From the NCBI GenBank assembly GCA_003557545.1, contig PWOD01000185.1, forward strand, positions 1 through 18,771: DNA of 18,771 nt, read 5' to 3'. This DNA is from a bacterium (GTDB lineage Bacteria; T1Sed10-126). Positions 2,145-18,402 of the stretch are shown here, piece by piece. The position numbers and the translations under genes are program-made. The notes beneath the pieces are model-generated. The model was given only the letters and a program-made list of their open reading frames with translations. It searched no databases and was not told the origin of the DNA. Position 1 is the stretch's first letter. Each line of letters starts with the position of its first letter.

Positions 2145-3722
2145 GTGTCAGACCCAGAAGATCCCCGAAGTTCTTCCCGTTTACGAAAAGTTTTTCAAGA
2201 TTTACAAGATCAGGAAACCAAACAAACTGTTCCAGATAACCAGGAGTCCTCAGCACCACGGAGTTCTCCGACTGAAATTAAACTTGATGATTTTTCGCTG
2301 GACAAACTGAATTTTAGCGAAGAAGATCTGGCCGAAATTGAACGAATACAAAAACGGCTGGAGATCCTCAAAAGTCCTGAAAAAAAAGACAATAAAAATG
2401 AGCTAATCCCCTTCGACCAGGAGTTCATCAATAAATTAAAGGATCTTGTACCAGAAATTGTCGAGGCCGTCGTTGTAAAGTACCGAATGGACAGAACAAC
2501 CAGCCGGGAGCGGGCCGAGAACACCGGTTTTTATAATCAGGTCCGATCAAATACCGAAGAAATCATCCGACAATCACGTCACAACCTGAGTGTTGGGGAG
2601 CAAAATTTTCTGGTTGATATGGTGGTTGACGAGGTCATCGGTTACGGCCCGATAACCAGGCTGATCAAGGATGAATCAGTCAGTGAAATAATGGTCAATG
2701 ACCTGGCCGAAGTCTATGCGGAAAAAGAAGGGGGAATGGAACTAACCGATGTGTTTTTTATCAGCGTTGACCAGATGATGCGCTGTGTTAGCAGTATTTT
2801 AAAGGATACAAACCGGTCGGTCGATCAATCCTCACCCAGTGTAGATGCCACCTTGCCAGACGGTTCTCGTATCCACATAATTATTCCACCGCTTACCACA
2901 AACACTCCTAAAATCACGATCAGAAAATTTAAAAAAACCCTTTTAAAGATTGAAGATTTGATTGGTTTTGGTACCCTTACCCATGATCTCGCCTATTTTC
3001 TCGGCGCCTGTGTAAAAGCCAGTTTAAATATCGTCGTATGTGGGGGAACCTCTACCGGTAAAACTACCTTTTTAAATATTCTATCCTCACTAATACCTGA
3101 GGGTGAACGTGTTATAACAATCGAAGATTCCCTGGAATTGAAATTTCATCAGAATAAAGACAACATCATCCGACTCCAGACCAGGGACCCAAATATGGAG
3201 GGTGTCGGTGAAGTCACAACTACCGATCTATTAAAAGATTCATTAAGAATGCGTCCCGACCGGATAGTTGTCGGTGAGGTTAGAGGGCGTGAGTTTTTAG
3301 ATATGCTTCAGGCCATGAATACAGGGCATGACGGTTCTTTCACCACACTTCACGCCAATACTCCGCACGAGGCAATTTTCCGGCTGGTCAATTTAGCCCT
3401 GCTCTCGGGCTTCGACCTGTCAGACCATGTGGTACGGAGACAGATTGGAAGCTCAGTTAAGCTCTTTGTTCAACTTAAGCGGTTCAAAGATGGCAGTCGT
3501 CGAATCAGCCATATAACAGAAGTTTTCCCTGATAATGAACATGGCCTGCTGCTCAAAGATATTTTTCGATTTGAACACCAGGGTTTTGATAAAAACCGAC
3601 GTGTGATTGGCAAATTCAAATGCATCCGACGGCCTGACCACCTTATAGAACTCTTCCAGCTGGCCGGGATTGAATTTCCTGAAAAAGTCTTTGAAACAGT
3701 TTCTGAAAACCGAGATGAATAA
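2145..3722 (+). CDS. cpaF: CpaF/TadA-family secretion or pilus-assembly ATPase
   Basis: This 525-residue protein belongs to the type II/IV secretion ATPase superfamily; family members are hexameric motors for Tad/Flp pili or secretion. Residues 1-90 are acidic, low-complexity and probably disordered. Residues about 95-260 form the usual N-terminal domain, with EVIGYGPITRLI and SEIMVND. The ATPase core has a Walker A motif GGTSTGKTT (300-308), an Asp box ITIEDSLEL (about 325), a Walker B region RIVVGEVRG (373-381) and a His box GSFTTLHAN (397-405), so it should be active. The start is GTG with AAGGAGG 6 nt upstream. No pilin, TadB/C, CpaB or prepilin peptidase gene is in the window, which is unusual. 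It overlaps the following HATPase gene by 8 nt, which suggests co-translation. The family is certain; a role in pilus assembly is not shown. Confidence 0.9.
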   Translation: MSDPEDPRSSSRLRKVFQDLQDQETKQTVPDNQESSAPRSSPTEIKLDDFSLDKLNFSEEDLAEIERIQKRLEILKSPEKKDNKNELIPFDQEFINKLKDLVPEIVEAVVVKYRMDRTTSRERAENTGFYNQVRSNTEEIIRQSRHNLSVGEQNFLVDMVVDEVIGYGPITRLIKDESVSEIMVNDLAEVYAEKEGGMELTDVFFISVDQMMRCVSSILKDTNRSVDQSSPSVDATLPDGSRIHIIIPPLTTNTPKITIRKFKKTLLKIEDLIGFGTLTHDLAYFLGACVKASLNIVVCGGTSTGKTTFLNILSSLIPEGERVITIEDSLELKFHQNKDNIIRLQTRDPNMEGVGEVTTTDLLKDSLRMRPDRIVVGEVRGREFLDMLQAMNTGHDGSFTTLHANTPHEAIFRLVNLALLSGFDLSDHVVRRQIGSSVKLFVQLKRFKDGSRRISHITEVFPDNEHGLLLKDIFRFEHQGFDKNRRVIGKFKCIRRPDHLIELFQLAGIEFPEKVFETVSENRDE

Positions 3723-4197
3723 ATCCAAACAGCTAAAGATAAAAATTGATCAGTATTCCATGCTCAAACAAGCTCGGAAAAAAATAATAATTAAACTTAA
3801 AAATTTTCTAAAAGAACTTTCCTGCGACCAGTTGCTAATATCTGAAGCTACAATCATCAGTATTGAACTTATAACCAACATTCAAAAATACGCCGACTTA
3901 ACTGATAAACAGCTGCGGGAAAGGCCACTTAAAATCACTGCTCAAATAATCGGTAACAGATTGAAAATGGAATTTCTAGACCCCGGCATAAAATTCAACC
4001 CAGTAAAAAAGCATCCGGCTAAAAATTCTAAATTAAAACCCGGCGGGAGGGGATTAACAATAATCAAAAATATATCGAAAAAAATTACCTATGAGAGAAT
4101 TAACAATAACCAAAATAAACTCACTGTTTTTCTGCCCCTCTGCAGACCTGAAGCAGTTGGCGAACAACCGACTCAACCTGGTGATTACCCGGTTTGA
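3715..4197 (+). CDS. HATPase_c serine kinase / anti-sigma factor-like protein (RsbW/SpoIIAB type)
   Basis: This is a 160-residue single-domain protein. It has an N-box-like segment IELITNIQKYA (50-60, Asn55), a G1-like motif LDPGIKFNP (88-96) and a G2 motif GGRGLTII (110-117). This is the layout of anti-sigma kinases that phosphorylate a STAS partner and hold a sigma factor or other target. I chose ATG 3715 because it overlaps the end of the cpaF-like gene by 8 nt. A TTG at 3670 in the same frame would add 15 residues but looks like shadow sequence. The gene is A-rich and lysine-rich. Its last 18 residues lie beyond the core fold, and its final 13 bp overlap the convergent STAS gene. The likely partners are the STAS protein and the SpoIIE phosphatase next door. 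Its target is unknown; no sigma factor gene is in the window. Confidence 0.75.
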   Translation: MNKSKQLKIKIDQYSMLKQARKKIIIKLKNFLKELSCDQLLISEATIISIELITNIQKYADLTDKQLRERPLKITAQIIGNRLKMEFLDPGIKFNPVKKHPAKNSKLKPGGRGLTIIKNISKKITYERINNNQNKLTVFLPLCRPEAVGEQPTQPGDYPV

Positions 4198-9483: not shown

Positions 9484-10443
9484 CTACCGGTCAACAGCCA
9501 ACCAACCACTCAAATCTTTATCTATCAGTTTCTCTACCCGGCGAACCTCAGCAGCTGATTGGTCGACCAGTTTGCGGTACAGACGATCAGACATAGGGGG
9601 CCGGGTGGTGTTTTTAACCATCAGGGGCCGAATATCTTCCAAGGCCTGCATGCAGGGTTTAACCGGCAGAAAATCACGAATTGTCTCCTTAGTATCACCC
9701 GGTATTTTTTTTACAAATTCCTGCATAAACTCCGTTTTGAAGCGACTATTGCTATTATGTTTTTCAAACTGCGGTTTAGGATAGCTTTCTAATCCAAGAA
9801 ATTCCAGCACTGTTTTATAAACCTGTTCAGCCGATTGCCGTAATTCATCAAGCGTAATAAAAACTATCTGCTCCCGGTCAAATTCACGTAAATAACGAAG
9901 AATTTGACGAGCATAGAGAAAGACCTCTGTATAGATCAATCCTCGAGGAAAATAAGCACCTTCCGGTATAGCTTTACCCTGTTTTCTCAAGGGTTCTAAC
10001 CGCAACGCCCGAGTAAAATCATCAACCGACTCATTACCCAGATAGAGATACTGACTGTGTAAAGAATAGATCGCATCGGGAATTTTTCTAAGCATAATAA
10101 TTATTCGGGCCTCGGGAGCAAACTGTTTGATTTCAGCCGCCGCCCGGGATGAATAAAGATACCAGGTTGAAGCCTCACCCACCCGTGAATAACCAGCCGC
10201 ACCAGCGAAAAAACTAAGATACTCAGCTTCAGTTTTAGTCCGCAGCTTATGATCAATTAGATCCTTGCAAAAATAAAGCGGTTCCTTGGGCACAGACATA
10301 AATATTTCGGGATGCTCACGCAGATAAAAATAAAGTGAAGTTGTCCCACATTTCGGTGCTCCCACAATAAAAAAATTAGGCTTTTTTATCGACTTATTCG
10401 CTGATGGATTAAACAGATCAGCAATTTTCTCGGTTAGTGTGAT
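9484..10443 (-). CDS. PAPS-dependent sulfotransferase (no standard start codon at the expected site)
   Basis: The protein has the 5'-phosphosulfate loop GAPKCGTTSLYFYL, and later RKIPDAIYSLHSQYL matches the 3'-phosphate-binding region of PAPS sulfotransferases. The family moves sulfate from PAPS to an acceptor; the acceptor here is unknown. The only standard start, GTG 10365, would begin inside the first beta strand (PNFFIVGAPKCGTT) and remove it. The frame is open upstream to a TGA at 10450-10452, but contains no ATG, GTG or TTG. I extend it to ATC 10443, which lies 7 nt after GGGGGGTG, giving 319 residues. The conservative call is 9484-10365 (293 residues). Other possibilities are another rare start codon or a lost start. 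It lies about 30 bp downstream of the AI-2E-family gene. Confidence 0.8.
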   Translation of the reverse strand: MTLTEKIADLFNPSANKSIKKPNFFIVGAPKCGTTSLYFYLREHPEIFMSVPKEPLYFCKDLIDHKLRTKTEAEYLSFFAGAAGYSRVGEASTWYLYSSRAAAEIKQFAPEARIIIMLRKIPDAIYSLHSQYLYLGNESVDDFTRALRLEPLRKQGKAIPEGAYFPRGLIYTEVFLYARQILRYLREFDREQIVFITLDELRQSAEQVYKTVLEFLGLESYPKPQFEKHNSNSRFKTEFMQEFVKKIPGDTKETIRDFLPVKPCMQALEDIRPLMVKNTTRPPMSDRLYRKLVDQSAAEVRRVEKLIDKDLSGWLAVDR

Positions 10444-12259: not shown

Positions 12260-12410
12260 TTGTTTTTCACTGAGTTTGACCGATTTGGCCACCTTTCAGT
12301 TTTTTTAATTTCCAGTTATACTATGATCAAACAGTTATTAATTTTAATTGAACTAACCAAATAAAGTCAGACAGCTCAGCTACAATAGAAACAGAATAGG
12401 GTGAACAACT

Positions 12411-13325
12411 ATGCTGAACAGCTTTCATCTAACTGAAACCCTCAGCCTCTTATACGAAATAATAACCTATCCCCTGTTCAAAATTCAAGACAGCCATATC
12501 TCACTTCATACCATTGCCGTACTATTAATCTTCATCTTTGCCGCCTACCTGATCTCCCGTTATCTACAAAAAATTTACGATCTGCGGGTTGCCTCCCACT
12601 TCTCCCGGGGAACTGATTTCACAGTAAAAAGATTAATCCATTACAGCGTCCTTATCATTGCCTTTCTAATCGGTGTGGAGGCGGCTGGTATCGACCTGTC
12701 CAGCCTCGCAATAATTGCCGGTTTTCTCAGTGTCGGTATCGGATTTGGTTTGAAAAATATAACCTCCAATTTTATCAGCGGACTAATCCTCCTGTTCGAA
12801 CGGCCGATCGAGGTTGGTGATACAGTCACAGTAGGTGATCAATTAGGAACTGTTACCGGAATAAATCTTCGGGCCACTGAAGTAAACACCTGGGAGAATA
12901 TCGACATAATCATCCCTAACTCAGCCTTTGTCGAAGAAAATGTTGTTAACTGGTCACACGGAGAGGATCATGTCCGAATTAGCTGTGAAGTAGGGGTGGC
13001 CTACGGTTGTGATACAGCAAAAGTGAAAGAACTTCTGGAGACTGTTGCCGGCGAACATCCAAAAATCCTAAAAACACCCCGCCCCAACGTACTATTTAGA
13101 GCTTTTGGAGATTCTTCTCTTGATTTTGAACTACGCTTTTGGATAAAAAATCCCCGCTGGAGAGCCCGCATCCAGAGTGAAATAAATTTTGCTATTGATC
13201 GTGAATTTAGAAAACATCAGATTGAAATACCCTTTCCCCAGCGCGATCTTCATCTACGCAGTACAACGACGACGCTGCCAATTAGCTCTGAATCAACTGT
13301 GGAAGAGAGCCCGATTTCCGATTAA
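12411..13325 (+). CDS. MscS-family mechanosensitive ion channel
   Basis: This 304-residue membrane protein has hydrophobic segments near residues 33-51, 75-92 and 96-125. The third is the pore helix, leading into GIGFGLKNITSNFISG and LLFERPIEVGDTV, the hallmark of MscS. The beta domain follows with INLRATEVNTWENIDIIIPN and a C-terminal PFPQRDLHLR. Channels of this family open under membrane tension and release solutes during hypo-osmotic shock. The start is ATG 12411 after AGGGTGA. It is a single plus-strand gene between two minus-strand operons. Its stop is 8 bp from the stop of the convergent RnfC-like gene. Confidence 0.93.
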   Translation: MLNSFHLTETLSLLYEIITYPLFKIQDSHISLHTIAVLLIFIFAAYLISRYLQKIYDLRVASHFSRGTDFTVKRLIHYSVLIIAFLIGVEAAGIDLSSLAIIAGFLSVGIGFGLKNITSNFISGLILLFERPIEVGDTVTVGDQLGTVTGINLRATEVNTWENIDIIIPNSAFVEENVVNWSHGEDHVRISCEVGVAYGCDTAKVKELLETVAGEHPKILKTPRPNVLFRAFGDSSLDFELRFWIKNPRWRARIQSEINFAIDREFRKHQIEIPFPQRDLHLRSTTTTLPISSESTVEESPISD

Positions 13326-13333
13326 CCGAATAA

Positions 13334-14413
13334 TCAAACGGTTATCCGGACAGAATTTTCTGTTACCTCCCGCACGACTCCATCTATCGAGGCATGCTGA
13401 TAATTACTTATCCCTGTAGAGGCCGGAACAGCAATAATCTCACCGGTTTTAACCGGTTGCCCCGGTTCGACTACCGGTTGACTTGGCTCGACTTTACCAA
13501 TCAGTTGTGGATTAGTTAAGGTTGGAATAGTAACAGTTTCCGGTTCCACCCTCAAAGGAGCAACACACCGCTTCGATTCGTCCCAGTTTCCGGCCTGCAG
13601 GGCATTAATTCTCACCGGCTGATTTTTGTCACGATTGTTTTCCACAAACTCCCGGGTTGTCACCATAACCCCGTTTGTCCGCTTACTAACTCCATAATTC
13701 CGATATTCCATTTTTATTTCACAGGCAAACCCCGGACCGCCGTCCAATAAAACTAAATCTCTGGATGCTACTCCCTGTTCAATCTCCAGTAACTTCAACA
13801 AGGTCAAAACCGGGGTGCCAACCGGCACATCAAAATAAGCCGGGGACAGCTGCGGACCATAAATGGTCACCAGTTTACGTGTAACAGGACGATTATCAAG
13901 CAGGGCAGCTAAAATATTATAGATAGTTTCAGCATTCTGTACTATCCACCCGTGCTGTGTGGGTAGATCTGTTCCTATCTGCTGACCGGCTATCGTCCAG
14001 ATCAAAGCAGTTTCCTGGCTCAGTTCATAACGTTCACCAGTATAAACGATCATCAACTCTTTACCTGGAGAAAACTCACACGGTAACTGGTGGGGAAAAA
14101 TAACAAGATCCGGTTCAATGGACTGTTCAAAACCACTCAGCCGATCTTCACGATATTTATTTTTAGTAGCAATAATCACCCGCTGGAAAGAACATTCCAG
14201 GAGCTCTTTCAATCCCCGTTGGTAAAAATCAACCTGGCTGGTGACAAGCCAGCAGTCAGTCCCAAAGACCGGTTCACCCTCCTGTAAATTAACTATCAAG
14301 CCACTAATCTTATCCAGCTGCTGCCATTTAACATAGGTAGGAAATCCAGCTCCCCCGGCACCACTCACCCCGGCTTCCTGAAGTTTTCCGGCAATTTTCT
14401 GGCTATCAATCAT
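13334..14413 (-). CDS. RnfC/PduS/PrdC-like flavoprotein lacking iron-sulfur motifs
   Basis: This protein of about 359 residues opens with the glycine-rich GVSGAGGAGFPTYVKW, typical of the Nqo1/RnfC/PduS/PrdC fold that binds FMN. It continues with GWIVQNAETIYNI and an SLBB-like PVGTPVLTLLKLLE. The last 60 residues look like the RnfC-type barrel-sandwich domain (VEPGQPVKTGEII, SIDGVVREV). Family members usually carry two [4Fe-4S] clusters in CxxCxxCxxxC motifs; none is present here, and only isolated cysteines remain. The usual AECEP-type segment reads LQEGEP. ATG 14413 overlaps the oadB stop in an ATGA, so the genes are translationally coupled; GTG 14422 is a second option. The function is unknown. 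Redox coupling or regulation of the Na+ decarboxylase is an inference from context. Confidence 0.75.
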   Translation of the reverse strand: MIDSQKIAGKLQEAGVSGAGGAGFPTYVKWQQLDKISGLIVNLQEGEPVFGTDCWLVTSQVDFYQRGLKELLECSFQRVIIATKNKYREDRLSGFEQSIEPDLVIFPHQLPCEFSPGKELMIVYTGERYELSQETALIWTIAGQQIGTDLPTQHGWIVQNAETIYNILAALLDNRPVTRKLVTIYGPQLSPAYFDVPVGTPVLTLLKLLEIEQGVASRDLVLLDGGPGFACEIKMEYRNYGVSKRTNGVMVTTREFVENNRDKNQPVRINALQAGNWDESKRCVAPLRVEPETVTIPTLTNPQLIGKVEPSQPVVEPGQPVKTGEIIAVPASTGISNYQHASIDGVVREVTENSVRITV

Positions 14414-15537
14414 GGAAACCACAATGGAACCAGCTGAATTAGCACGCCGGCGGCCAGAGCTGAACCTATGACCCCCGCCACATTAGCCCCCATAGCCACC
14501 ATGATTAAATAGTTATCAGCATCTGCCTCACGACCAACCTGATGAGCAACACGAGCAGCCATTGGGACAGCGCTAACCCCGGCCGCACCGATCACCGGAT
14601 TAATCTTCCCGCCACTCAGCCAGCAGAGGATTTTGCCAAAAATAACCCCGCAGACGGTGGCAAAAGCAAAAGCCACAACTCCCAGTATGAGAATACCCAG
14701 GGTCTGCCAGCGCCAGAACAATCCGGCCGGCATCGAGGCTCCAACAGCCAGCCCCAAAAATAAGGTGACGATATCCATTATATAATCCTGAGCGGCACGA
14801 TTTAACCGTTCCACAACCCCACATACACGAAGAAAATTCCCCAGCATCAACATCCCTATCAAAGGAGCAGCGGTGGGGATCAATAACAGAGTCAAAAACA
14901 TACAGACTACAGGGAAAATTATTTTCACCCGAGGATCAACCACAGCTCCCCGCTCCATCCTTATCTTCCTCTCCCGGGTTGTGGTTAACAGTTTTATCAG
15001 AGGTGGTTGGATAAGGGGTACAAGAGCCATATATGAATAAGCTGCAACAGCAATCGGCCCTACCAACTCCCCGGCCAGCCGGTTTGCCGCAAAGATCGCC
15101 GTTGGTCCATCAGCTCCTCCGATTATTCCAATGGCGGCAGCTTCTGCCGGTATGAACCCAAACAGCACTGCTCCAATAAAAGTAAGAAAAATCCCGGCCT
15201 GAGCCGCCATTCCCAGGAGCATCGTCTGGGGCCGCGAAAGCATCGGTGAAAAATCAGTCAGAGCGCCAACACCAAGAAAAATAAGGGGGGGCAAAATCTC
15301 ATAATCAATTCCCAGTTTGACGATGGATAGCAGTCCCTGATCAGCCAGCAAACCGGTTTCTGGCAGATTGGCCAGCATGATACCAAATCCAATCGGAACC
15401 AGAAGCAGAGGTTCATAGGATTTTTTAACTCCCAGATAGAGCAGAACCAATCCAACAATTAACATCCCCGCCTGGCCCAAACTGAAGCTCTCTATGGCAG
15501 TTAAACTAAAAATTTCCTGAACCGTTTGACTGATGAT
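14410..15537 (-). CDS. oadB: Na+-translocating decarboxylase beta subunit (OadB/MmdB/GcdB), probable ATC start
   Basis: This very hydrophobic subunit decarboxylates carboxybiotin and pumps Na+ across the membrane. It has YEPLLLVPIGFG near the N-terminus, GGADGPTAIF carrying the functionally essential Asp of the family, and GVSAVPMAARV plus MGANVAGVIG near the C-terminus. The only nearby standard start is TTG 15480, but family members have about 15-20 residues before the GQxxM segment, and the frame stays coding-like upstream (QEIFSLTAIESFSLGQ). No ATG, GTG or TTG occurs in that extension. AAAGGAG (15550-15544) lies exactly 6 nt before ATC 15537, so I take this as the start (375 residues). TTG 15480 (356 residues) is the conservative choice. 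It begins 1 nt after the stop of the second biotin carrier gene. Confidence 0.92.
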   Translation of the reverse strand: MISQTVQEIFSLTAIESFSLGQAGMLIVGLVLLYLGVKKSYEPLLLVPIGFGIMLANLPETGLLADQGLLSIVKLGIDYEILPPLIFLGVGALTDFSPMLSRPQTMLLGMAAQAGIFLTFIGAVLFGFIPAEAAAIGIIGGADGPTAIFAANRLAGELVGPIAVAAYSYMALVPLIQPPLIKLLTTTRERKIRMERGAVVDPRVKIIFPVVCMFLTLLLIPTAAPLIGMLMLGNFLRVCGVVERLNRAAQDYIMDIVTLFLGLAVGASMPAGLFWRWQTLGILILGVVAFAFATVCGVIFGKILCWLSGGKINPVIGAAGVSAVPMAARVAHQVGREADADNYLIMVAMGANVAGVIGSALAAGVLIQLVPLWFP

Positions 15538-15538
15538 T

Positions 15539-15952
15539 TTAAACTCCTTTCAGAGTAATTAATTTTTGTCCTTCTTCAACACTTTCACCCTCGGAAACAT
15601 GGATGCTATCGACTTCAGCAGCCATCGGAGCAGGAATTTTTGACTCCAGCTTCATCGCCTCAAGGTTAAGCAAATCCTCTCCTGAGGTAACACTATCCCC
15701 GGGTGCAACATAAATTTCCATGACCTTCCCTGCAATAGGAGAAGATATCTCGGTCACTTCAGAACTTGCTGATCTAACCTCACAATCATCTTCTACAGCA
15801 GTCTGCTTACCCGGACTGGCTGCTGTCGCCTCTGAAAAAGCTGGTTTTACTTTCCAGCTATTCTGACCAATAGTTGCACGATAACCATCTCCCACCCATT
15901 CTACTTCTACTTCAATCTCTTCACCCTCATGTACTAAGCTGTATCTGGCCAT
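15539..15952 (-). CDS. Biotin carrier protein of the Na+ decarboxylase (MmdC/OadA-C-terminus type)
   Basis: This is a 137-residue protein. Residues 3-36 form the small beta region seen in decarboxylase biotin carriers (YSLVHEGEEIEVEVEWV). An Ala/Ser/Glu-rich linker runs over about 38-66, followed by a biotinyl domain at 68-137 with the biotinylation motif EAMKLE (Lys101). It should carry carboxybiotin from the carboxyltransferase to OadB. I chose ATG 15952 because GGAGGG lies 9 nt upstream; the in-frame TTG at 15961 directly abuts that site and cannot use it. It is distinct from the AccB-like carrier upstream in the same operon. Confidence 0.92.
   Translation of the reverse strand: MARYSLVHEGEEIEVEVEWVGDGYRATIGQNSWKVKPAFSEATAASPGKQTAVEDDCEVRSASSEVTEISSPIAGKVMEIYVAPGDSVTSGEDLLNLEAMKLESKIPAPMAAEVDSIHVSEGESVEEGQKLITLKGV
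15544..15550 (-). promoter_or_regulatory. Ribosome binding site that points to an ATC start for oadB
   Basis: Minus-strand AAAGGAG overlaps the last codons of the biotin carrier gene. It is 6 nt from ATC 15537 and more than 60 nt from TTG 15480, so it serves only the upstream start. Confidence 0.6.
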
Positions 15953-16015
15953 AGTAACCAACCCTCCGTTATAATCAGAAAAAAATTTCTTCCGATAGAA
16001 CAGTGCCCGACAGAC

Positions 16016-16315
16016 TCAATCAATTCTCTCTGAGCCCTGGAAAAGACGCTCACCCAGCCCAATCCTCTGACGATGTATCTCTACCGCAACAACCGCTATC
16101 ACCGGCTCAGCCAACCGGTCACCGGGAGTTTCCTGCGGGTGACTGTCAACTGTATTATCAGAGCTATCTTTAGTGATTGGTTGAGCCTTTTCAGCGGGAA
16201 AGAAAAATCGCAGTAAAACTACAGTTAAAATCAGCAGCAACAGGACTGCTGCCACCACTGTAATACCCACAACCGACACCAGCAAAACAGTCGGCAAACT
16301 ACCAAAGTTGATCAT
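16016..16315 (-). CDS. OadG-family gamma/delta subunit of the Na+ decarboxylase
   Basis: This is a 99-residue protein with one membrane helix at about residues 8-38, a polar Ser/Asp/Pro-rich linker, and a short C-terminal hydrophobic stretch PVIAVVAVEIHR. This is the build of OadG/MmdD-type subunits, which anchor the carboxyltransferase to the membrane subunit and help assembly. Primary sequence is poorly conserved in the family, so context matters: it sits 9 bp after the carboxyltransferase stop and before the biotin carrier and oadB. The start is ATG 16315; its ribosome site (GTAGAG) is weak, as is common for a coupled gene. Confidence 0.8.
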   Translation of the reverse strand: MINFGSLPTVLLVSVVGITVVAAVLLLLILTVVLLRFFFPAEKAQPITKDSSDNTVDSHPQETPGDRLAEPVIAVVAVEIHRQRIGLGERLFQGSERID

Positions 16316-16324
16316 TGTTTTGCT

Positions 16325-17896
16325 CTACAACGGGATATTTCCATGTTTTTTACCGGGTCGATGCTGATCCTTGTTAATCACCATTTCAAGAGTTTCAACC
16401 AGCACCCGCCGGGTTTCAGCCGGATTAATCACCTGATCGACCAGGCCATCCTCAGCGGCCCGGTATGGTTTGGCAAACCGTTCACGAAACTGATCGATTT
16501 TTTCCTGCCGTTCCCTGTCAGGATCTTCTGCCTTATTTATTTCAGAACTATGAATAATATTAACGGCACCCCGCGCGCCCATGACTGCAATTTCAGCCGT
16601 CGGGTAGGCCATAACAGAATCATATCCCATGTCACGGCTGCACATTGCCACAAAAGCTCCACCATAAGACTTGCGGACTATCAGACTAATTTTGGGAACT
16701 TTAGCTTCAGAATAGGCAAACAACATCTTAGCCCCATGTCGAATAACTCCCCCATGTTCCTGACCAACACCCGGCAAAAATCCGGGAACATCAACAAAGT
16801 TAATCAATGGAATATTAAAACTGTCACAGAGCCGTACAAAACGGGCTATTTTATCAGCACTATCTATATCAAGACAGCCGGCCAGCTTCTTCGGTTGGTT
16901 ACCGACTATACCTACCGGATGACCGGCCAGCCGGCCAAATCCAATAATACAGTTGCCGGCAAAATCAGGTTTGAGTTCAAAAAACTTTCTTTCATCAAGC
17001 ACCGGTTTTATCACTTCCCGCATATCAAAGGCCAGCTTGGGATCAGTAGGAACAACACTGAGTATCTCCTCGGTCGGCCTATCGACTGGATCCTCAACCT
17101 TCTCTCTGGGCGGCTTCTTCTGATAATTATCCGGCAAAAATCTTAATAGTTTTTTTACATTATCCAGACATTCCCGCTCACTGGCGAAACTTATATCAGC
17201 CGTCCCGGTAATTCTGGCATGGGTTACAGCACCCCCAAGCTTTTCAACAGTAACTTCTTCACCGGTCACCTCTTTAATTACCTTGGGACCGGTCAAAAAC
17301 ATGTTGCTGGTCCCTTCAACCATAAAAATAATGTCGGTTATGGCCGGCGAATAGACGGCACCACCGGCACAGGGACCCATTATACAGGTAATTTGAGGAA
17401 TAACCCCGGAGGCAAAGGTATTATTTTTAAAGATCTTCCCATATCCATTTAATGAATGAATCCCCTCCTGTATACGTGCACCACCAGAATCATTTATCTG
17501 GATGAAAGGCCGGCCGTTTTCCAGAGCTTTGGTCTGTACAGCGACTATCTTTTCTGCATGCATTTCCCCCAGAGAACCACCCATGACCGTAAAATCCTGA
17601 GCCATAAGATAGACCTGCCGGGAATCGATTCGGGCAGTCCCGGTGACCACACCATCACCCGCCGGCCGTTTATTTTCCATACCGAAATCAGTACATCGAT
17701 GACGGGTAAAAGGATTCATCTCACGAAAACTACCCTCGTCAACCAGATAATCTATCCGTTCCCGGGCGGTCAACTTACCCTTTTCATGCTGTTTTTCAAT
17801 TCGTTGCTTGCCGCCACCGGCTTTAAACTCCTCACGCTCCCGGTGCAGCTCATCAATCAACTTCTGCATCTGATCAAGATTTTCTTGTTCATCCAT
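16325..17896 (-). CDS. mmdA: Acyl-CoA carboxyltransferase, methylmalonyl-CoA decarboxylase alpha-subunit type
   Basis: This 523-residue protein is a full-length carboxyltransferase of the MmdA/PccB family, with paired N- and C-terminal crotonase-like halves. Oxyanion-hole regions are visible as NDSGGARIQEG and GPCAGGAVYSPAITD in the first half, and VPGFLPGVGQE and RKSYGGAFVAMCSRDMG in the second. It transfers the carboxyl of an acyl-CoA to biotin. The length and the presence of oadB and oadG in the operon favour methylmalonyl-CoA decarboxylase over propionyl-CoA carboxylase; glutaconyl-CoA decarboxylase alpha is longer. Substrate specificity cannot be proven from sequence. The start is ATG 17896, 71 bp after the AccB-like gene. 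Confidence 0.92.
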   Translation of the reverse strand: MDEQENLDQMQKLIDELHREREEFKAGGGKQRIEKQHEKGKLTARERIDYLVDEGSFREMNPFTRHRCTDFGMENKRPAGDGVVTGTARIDSRQVYLMAQDFTVMGGSLGEMHAEKIVAVQTKALENGRPFIQINDSGGARIQEGIHSLNGYGKIFKNNTFASGVIPQITCIMGPCAGGAVYSPAITDIIFMVEGTSNMFLTGPKVIKEVTGEEVTVEKLGGAVTHARITGTADISFASERECLDNVKKLLRFLPDNYQKKPPREKVEDPVDRPTEEILSVVPTDPKLAFDMREVIKPVLDERKFFELKPDFAGNCIIGFGRLAGHPVGIVGNQPKKLAGCLDIDSADKIARFVRLCDSFNIPLINFVDVPGFLPGVGQEHGGVIRHGAKMLFAYSEAKVPKISLIVRKSYGGAFVAMCSRDMGYDSVMAYPTAEIAVMGARGAVNIIHSSEINKAEDPDRERQEKIDQFRERFAKPYRAAEDGLVDQVINPAETRRVLVETLEMVINKDQHRPGKKHGNIPL

Positions 17897-17967: not shown

Positions 17968-18402
17968 TCAGTCCGGCTCAACATAGAGCAATACATCGCC
18001 CTTGCTGACCGGTTCCGCATCTTTTTTACAGAGCTGCCGAACCGTGCCTTTACATTCAGCTTCAATCTCATTCATCAACTTCATAGCCTCAATAATACAG
18101 ACGGTGGTTGTATAAGAGACCTTATCACCCGGTTCAACAAATGGTTTGGCATCCGGCGCCGGTGCTTCATAGAAAGTCCCAACCATCGGTGCTTCAATAG
18201 CCACCCAGTCTTCCGGCGGCTGATCAACATCGCGTGGTTTAGAACCGGTCACAGAGCTCTGTACCGCAGGAGCTGCTGCTGCAGTCCCGGGCTGTAAAGA
18301 GCTCATTTCAACTGCAAAATCCTCATCTGACCAGCCAAGCTTATCAAGCTCTGCTTCCTCTTTCAAACGTGCTATTTCCTGTAAAGTCTGCCAGGGAATC
18401 AC
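17968..18402 (-). CDS. accB: AccB-like biotin carboxyl carrier protein
   Basis: This is a 144-residue protein. The N-terminal 35 residues are helical and charged, a Pro/Ala-rich linker runs over about 36-64, and the biotinyl domain (68-144) carries the AccB hallmark APMVGTFYEAPAPDAKPF, including the thumb, and CIIEAMKLMNEIEAE with biotinylated Lys108. This thumb is typical of acetyl-CoA carboxylase carriers and differs from the second carrier of the operon. Start GTG 18402 overlaps the hflX stop in a GTGA. It may serve an acyl-CoA carboxylase encoded elsewhere or be a second carrier for the decarboxylase. No biotin carboxylase gene is visible here. Confidence 0.9.
   Translation of the reverse strand: MIPWQTLQEIARLKEEAELDKLGWSDEDFAVEMSSLQPGTAAAAPAVQSSVTGSKPRDVDQPPEDWVAIEAPMVGTFYEAPAPDAKPFVEPGDKVSYTTTVCIIEAMKLMNEIEAECKGTVRQLCKKDAEPVSKGDVLLYVEPD

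Follow-up and report, generated by a model that had tools for sequence, protein, structure and literature searches.

Which part does a relative of RnfC and PduS without iron-sulfur clusters play at the end of an operon for a Na+-pumping decarboxylase? The question is raised by contig PWOD01000185.1 (assembly GCA_003557545.1) from a bacterium of the GTDB lineage T1Sed10-126, the 18,771 nucleotides of which make up the window analyzed here. The original prediction for this locus held that the protein retains an FMN fold and a barrel-sandwich domain, lacks [4Fe-4S] motifs, overlaps oadB and could serve as an NADH sensor, as a dock between the decarboxylase and another complex, or as a link from decarboxylation to Na+-dependent redox chemistry. 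To our knowledge, the Fe-S clusters have so far been taken as the purpose of RnfC, PduS and PrdC proteins. The features concerned are:

13334..14413, minus strand: clusterless PduS/RnfC-type flavoprotein, 359 aa (Complex1_51K match, PduS-like profile alignment, RnfC fold match)
14410..14413, minus strand: ATGA shared by the stop codon of oadB and the start codon of the flavoprotein gene (read from the sequence)
14410..15480, minus strand: oadB, Na+-translocating carboxybiotin decarboxylase beta subunit (OAD_beta 3.3e-147, TIGR01109 465.6 bits)
15539..15961, minus strand: biotin carrier of the gamma/GcdC type, EAMKLE (Biotin_lipoyl 2.2e-16)
16016..16315, minus strand: OAD_gamma-like one-helix membrane subunit (PF04277 24.9 bits, slightly under the cut-off of 27)
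16325..17896, minus strand: MmdA-like carboxyltransferase subunit (Carboxyl_trans 1.2e-188; TIGR01117 773.8 bits against a cut-off of 998.8)
17968..18402, minus strand: second biotin carrier, AccB-like (Biotin_lipoyl 7e-20; TIGR00531 113.2 against a cut-off of 115.2)

The flavoprotein gene has the boundaries originally given for it and resides on the minus strand, with its ATG at 14413 and a stop codon ending at 13334; an in-frame GTG at 14422 offers an alternative start. The oadB stop codon TGA (14412-14410) shares ATGA with the flavoprotein's ATG, so that the overlap noted earlier is real in the window. Upstream and on the same strand, the full subunit set of a Na+-pumping biotin decarboxylase is encoded, and the flavoprotein gene is the last of the series. 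MmdA-like, OadB, OAD_gamma-like and biotin carrier subunits are all present, as in the oxaloacetate, methylmalonyl-CoA and glutaconyl-CoA decarboxylase pumps, and by its genes the pump resembles methylmalonyl-CoA or glutaconyl-CoA decarboxylase. Two biotin carriers are also found in Gcd of Clostridium symbiosum (PMC7145394); the two in the window's operon are unlike each other. In contrast to the window's operon, a flavoprotein is not among the subunits of the described pumps, and its absence from the Oad and Gcd subunit lists (PMC7145394) agrees with the earlier statement that such a subunit is foreign to known decarboxylases. Neither methylmalonyl-CoA mutase nor 2-hydroxyglutaryl-CoA dehydratase was detected in the window's genome or in the sister genome from the same phylum, and the lack of the latter enzyme in both led us to reject a glutaconyl-CoA route for the pump.

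The start of oadB probably lies upstream of 15480. In this frame, the stop at 15552-15550 is followed by no ATG, GTG or TTG until the TTG at 15480 (minus strand) is reached, yet residues conserved with the sister OadB are found upstream of this TTG. The sequence ATC ATC at 15537-15532 (minus strand) has an AAAGGAG motif in front of it, and either a non-canonical start or an assembly error may account for the situation. Downstream of the flavoprotein gene follow a convergent mscS-like gene and then genes for a cNMP-binding protein, an AI-2E transporter, a sulfotransferase, both fumarase parts and malic enzyme. The sulfotransferase-domain gene (9484-10365, minus strand), flanked by the genes for fumarase and for the AI-2E transporter, occupies the same place in the gene order of the sister genome.

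The domain structure of the flavoprotein points at PduS. Pfam places Complex1_51K at residues 12-167 (1.4e-18) and the RnfC_N barrel-sandwich at residues 303-354 with 23.2 bits, slightly below the cut-off of 25.6; the sister protein (27.6) and one haloarchaeal homologue (27.9) exceed this threshold with the same domain. The NCBIfam models for RnfC and PrdC match with 105-115 bits, well under their cut-offs: the protein fails the RnfC model TIGR01945 (105 versus 246) as well as the PrdC equivalog (115 versus 490), and no prd genes were seen in the window. A glycine-rich FMN motif, GAGGAGFPTYVKW, and an NxxExEP motif are present, CxxC pairs are absent and the five cysteines are dispersed. In a profile-profile comparison (hhalign), the clusterless profile is collinear end to end with PduS-like proteins (probability 100%, E 2e-47), interrupted by a single gap of roughly 100-130 residues that spans both CxxCxxC [4Fe-4S] motifs. 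The order of FMN/51K, SLBB-like and C-terminal barrel-sandwich domains is that of PduS and of the PduS-like protein encoded in the same genome (C61, L002), whereas the module that harbors the two [4Fe-4S] motifs, which in PduS lie between the SLBB domain and the barrel-sandwich, is missing. The PduS-like gene of this genome adjoins a BMC-domain gene, whereas no microcompartment genes were seen in the window; a second canonical relative, RnfC (C83, L003), is encoded beside an RnfD-type gene.

Among solved structures, RnfC (7zc6, 9eri, 8ahx) is the best match by sequence (3e-35) and by fold, and the NADH/FMN domain is common to both. A first structure model, built from two sequences, was set aside (pLDDT 40). 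The second AlphaFold2 model reached pLDDT 69.8 and pTM 0.75 and aligns with RnfC at Z 14.5-16.3 over 230-242 residues and with NuoF at Z about 13; the FMN loop (residues 19-33) is its least certain part, with a pLDDT below 50. RnfC differs in that its barrel-sandwich is N-terminal, its two-cluster ferredoxin domain lies at the C-terminus and its gene belongs to an rnf operon. The original description of the domains thus needs one correction: the FMN fold and the barrel-sandwich are indeed kept and the [4Fe-4S] motifs are gone, but the barrel-sandwich is C-terminal as in PduS and not N-terminal as in RnfC. With a full-length PduS alignment, no CxxC and intact FMN-site residues, the protein is almost certainly a clusterless flavoprotein of the PduS type, in accordance with the class assigned to it at the outset.

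The protein does not stand alone. We found 47 clusterless homologues, two of them bacterial and 45 from haloarchaeal loci, all of which score 468-622 bits with the family profile as compared to 82-150 bits for canonical proteins. Four CxxC occur in canonical PduS-like proteins and none in the body of the clusterless ones, with the exception of a single one in L036. The close haloarchaeal homologues emerged from tblastn and whole-genome searches; several are encoded on megaplasmids and they are annotated as 'NADH dehydrogenase subunit' (e.g., WP_004060600.1 from Haloferax mediterranei), sharing 37-42% identity with the clusterless protein across almost their entire length. At least one clusterless gene is present in 41 of 292 haloarchaeal genomes. 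Seven of 294 genomes sampled from the whole archaeal phylum were positive, and all seven were already known from the class search. Among 386 bacterial genomes, the protein was confined to the window's genome and its sister, the next-best bacterial matches being canonical proteins (E around 1e-31), and no clusterless homologue was found in viral contigs. Many haloarchaeal homologues (L040, L043, L091, L094-L103 and others) extend at the C-terminus into a zinc-ribbon-like tail, which contains two CxxC pairs and is absent from the bacterial proteins, and two haloarchaeal copies are seemingly interrupted by stop codons (G520:C9:73373-73966 and G693:C35:80438-81509). We did not find a description of the clusterless family, or of a flavoprotein in biotin decarboxylase Na+ pumps, in the open-access literature.

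Phylogenetically, the clusterless proteins form a clade apart from their canonical relatives, in which the two bacterial sequences group together (99/98). All 45 haloarchaeal sequences together form the sister group of this pair, a placement that is not decisive given its support of 88/76 and the long branches; as it stands, it lends no support to a recent transfer from haloarchaea. Comparison of the flavoprotein gene with its sister gene yielded a dN of 0.43 at saturated dS, indicating purifying selection. Selection of this kind and the uniformity of the clusterless family rule out a decayed or frame-shifted PduS.

Is the flavin site still in working order? For mapping, we used what we take to be the numbering of the FMN-contact residues in complex I Nqo1. 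The alignment positions equivalent to Nqo1 G64, G66, G67, G69, F70, K75, N92, E95, E97, E185 and N220 are invariant in all 47 clusterless proteins, and those of Y180 and G183 nearly so, in line with the expectation that FMN-site residues are kept. At the same time, the family possesses new invariant Trp, Gln and Asn residues of its own that set it apart from PduS, with W30, Q44, W156, G228-W229, N247 and N301, and W55 and W277 are conserved as well. Because the mapped FMN positions are conserved and new family-specific residues are present, a protein in which the flavin site was kept and the electron exit was changed is suggested. Binding of FMN is likely, as judged from these residues, which also make binding of NADH plausible. 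A caveat comes from PduS itself, in which Cys-to-Ala exchanges led to loss of FMN along with the clusters (PMC2982820), so that deletion of the module could have cost the flavoprotein its FMN.

In RnfC and PduS, FMN interconverts hydride transfer from and to NAD(H) and single electrons that travel via two clusters (PMC9588780, PMC11889175, PMC2982820). The parent chemistry is known, since PduS is an NADH-dependent FMN flavin and corrin reductase (PMC2982820). Homology and collinearity with PduS, the deletion, the conserved FMN site, the separate family and the selection on the gene are the observed points from which our preferred explanation sets out, and we consider it about evenly poised between right and wrong: the flavoprotein would be a PduS-type NAD(P)H-FMN protein with the two-cluster module deleted, acting as a direct-exit flavoenzyme. 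An ancestral PduS-type protein would have lost its two-cluster ferredoxin module; the remaining protein is predicted to bind FMN and to accept a hydride from NAD(P)H, and the reduced FMN would then pass its electrons directly to a small or protein acceptor instead of releasing them singly via Fe-S centres. This acceptor may sit at the vacated cluster face, in a pocket lined by W30, Q44, W55, W156, W229, N247 and W277. In haloarchaea, the protein would operate as a free-standing enzyme, while in the bacterial phylum its gene would have become the last cistron of the pump operon, with the consequence that it is made together with the pump.

How firmly, then, is the flavoprotein tied to the pump? 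The original prediction would have fallen had no other genome shown the pairing with oadB, but one does: in the sister genome, the single further member of the phylum examined, the flavoprotein gene again follows oadB, although the two are separated there by about 50 bp and the ATGA overlap is missing. The pairing is, however, confined to this phylum and embedded in a syntenic block: the sister genome is collinear over the whole 13-14-gene block from malic enzyme to an HflX-like GTPase, including the unrelated genes for the sulfotransferase, the AI-2E transporter and MscS. Because these unrelated genes keep their order too, adjacency of the flavoprotein gene and oadB in the sister genome says little on function. 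OAD_beta was found in 48 of 192 sampled bacterial genomes, and a mere two of these 48, both from one family, contain the flavoprotein; among the matches listed, no Complex1_51K gene lay within 10 kb of oadB.

The same picture arises for the archaeal family members. No oadB is present near the clusterless gene at any of the 45 haloarchaeal loci, where the gene is mostly standalone and has no constant neighbor; the protein thus does not need the pump to function. Its commonest neighbor encodes 3-dehydroquinate synthase II, mostly 209-275 bp upstream, and in one clade (L095, L097-L108) the clusterless gene usually follows this gene after about 215-275 bp, near a gene for type I 3-dehydroquinase. 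An mmdA-like gene (51% identity to that of the window) occurs at only three of the 45 loci. At one of them, L093, an mmdA-like carboxyltransferase and a biotin-carrier-like stretch (2406-3956 and 12354-12725) are encoded near the clusterless gene. Taken together, block synteny, an overlap that is not conserved, 45 haloarchaeal loci without oadB and 46 oadB-bearing bacteria without the flavoprotein leave the proposed functional tie to oadB unsupported. The flavoprotein is probably not an obligate pump subunit, and functional membership in the pump, of whatever kind, strikes us as unlikely.

Of the other roles that may be considered, docking to the Na+-pumping decarboxylase or serving as a structural component in it, as an independent parallel to NqrA, fares best, though we judge it quite unlikely. 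NqrA of Na+-NQR is likewise a member of the RnfC superfamily that resides in a Na+ pump without Fe-S clusters; it lost both clusters and FMN and is thought to have kept a structural role (PMC4014512, PMC9588780). The position of the flavoprotein gene at the end of the pump operon, overlapping oadB in one genome and in the same order in the sister, would fit such a role, as would its faster divergence, which is expected for a peripheral subunit (53% identity between the sister pair versus 81% for OadB). Unlike NqrA, in which the FMN site is lost and the barrel-sandwich is N-terminal, the clusterless proteins carry the barrel-sandwich at the C-terminus and have an FMN site that is invariant across the family, and a purely structural role is disfavored because this site is intact. 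The 45 haloarchaeal loci without OadB and the 46 of 48 oadB-bearing bacterial genomes that lack the flavoprotein further argue against docking, and block synteny accounts for the adjacency. No match to NqrA or NQRA_N appeared in the Pfam and NCBIfam, solved-structure profile (PDB) or fold listings, bearing in mind that absence from such lists is no proof of exclusion. An elaborate version, in which the phylum's decarboxylase pump gained an NADH/FMN-binding subunit that docks to OadB via its barrel-sandwich and renders the decarboxylation of carboxybiotin coupled to, or gated by, the state of NAD(H), would make the protein the second RnfC relative after NqrA to be independently built into a Na+ pump without clusters; we hold this to be highly improbable.

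It is very unlikely in our view that the gene is a mere passenger, i.e., an unrelated house-keeping gene that a rearrangement carried to the end of the pump operon, where it is simply co-transcribed, although archaeal family members without a pump, synteny of the entire block and the non-conserved overlap would all be in agreement with this. The gene has been kept in place over a divergence that left 53% identity, but staying at a new location costs nothing by itself. The passenger scenario moreover overlaps with our preferred explanation of a direct-exit flavoenzyme, which makes a claim on chemistry and none on a tie to the pump.

The prospect is slim for a redox sensor that binds NADH and FMN and regulates the pump by a change in shape without passing electrons on. 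Retention of the nucleotide and flavin site, loss of the electron exit and co-expression with the pump would fit, but we found no link to regulation, the haloarchaeal homologues have no pump to regulate, and the new invariant aromatic residues rather suggest a substrate or acceptor site. Equally slim is the prospect of a corrinoid (B12) reductase serving adenosylcobalamin-dependent methylmalonyl-CoA mutase in the way PduS, a corrin reductase (PMC2982820), serves diol dehydratase: one haloarchaeal clade (L042, L090, L093) encodes the mutase and the mmdA-like carboxyltransferase alongside the clusterless gene and a mutase is also present near L116, but no mutase was detected in the two bacterial genomes, on which ground we reject this function for the window's organism, most haloarchaeal copies reside elsewhere, e.g., about 215 bp after 3-dehydroquinate synthase II, and one clade among, by rough estimate, ten neighborhood types could be due to chance.

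What stands out here is the protein family, whereas its link to the pump is no more than a possibility. If true, that link would join decarboxylation-driven and redox-driven Na+ transport. For the haloarchaea, our observations imply that 'NADH dehydrogenase subunit' is probably the wrong name for the proteins so annotated. Dozens of members that possess an NADH/FMN site but not the cluster module suggest that the scaffold works as a different kind of flavoenzyme, and the clusterless family provides a natural test of the flavin domain acting alone.
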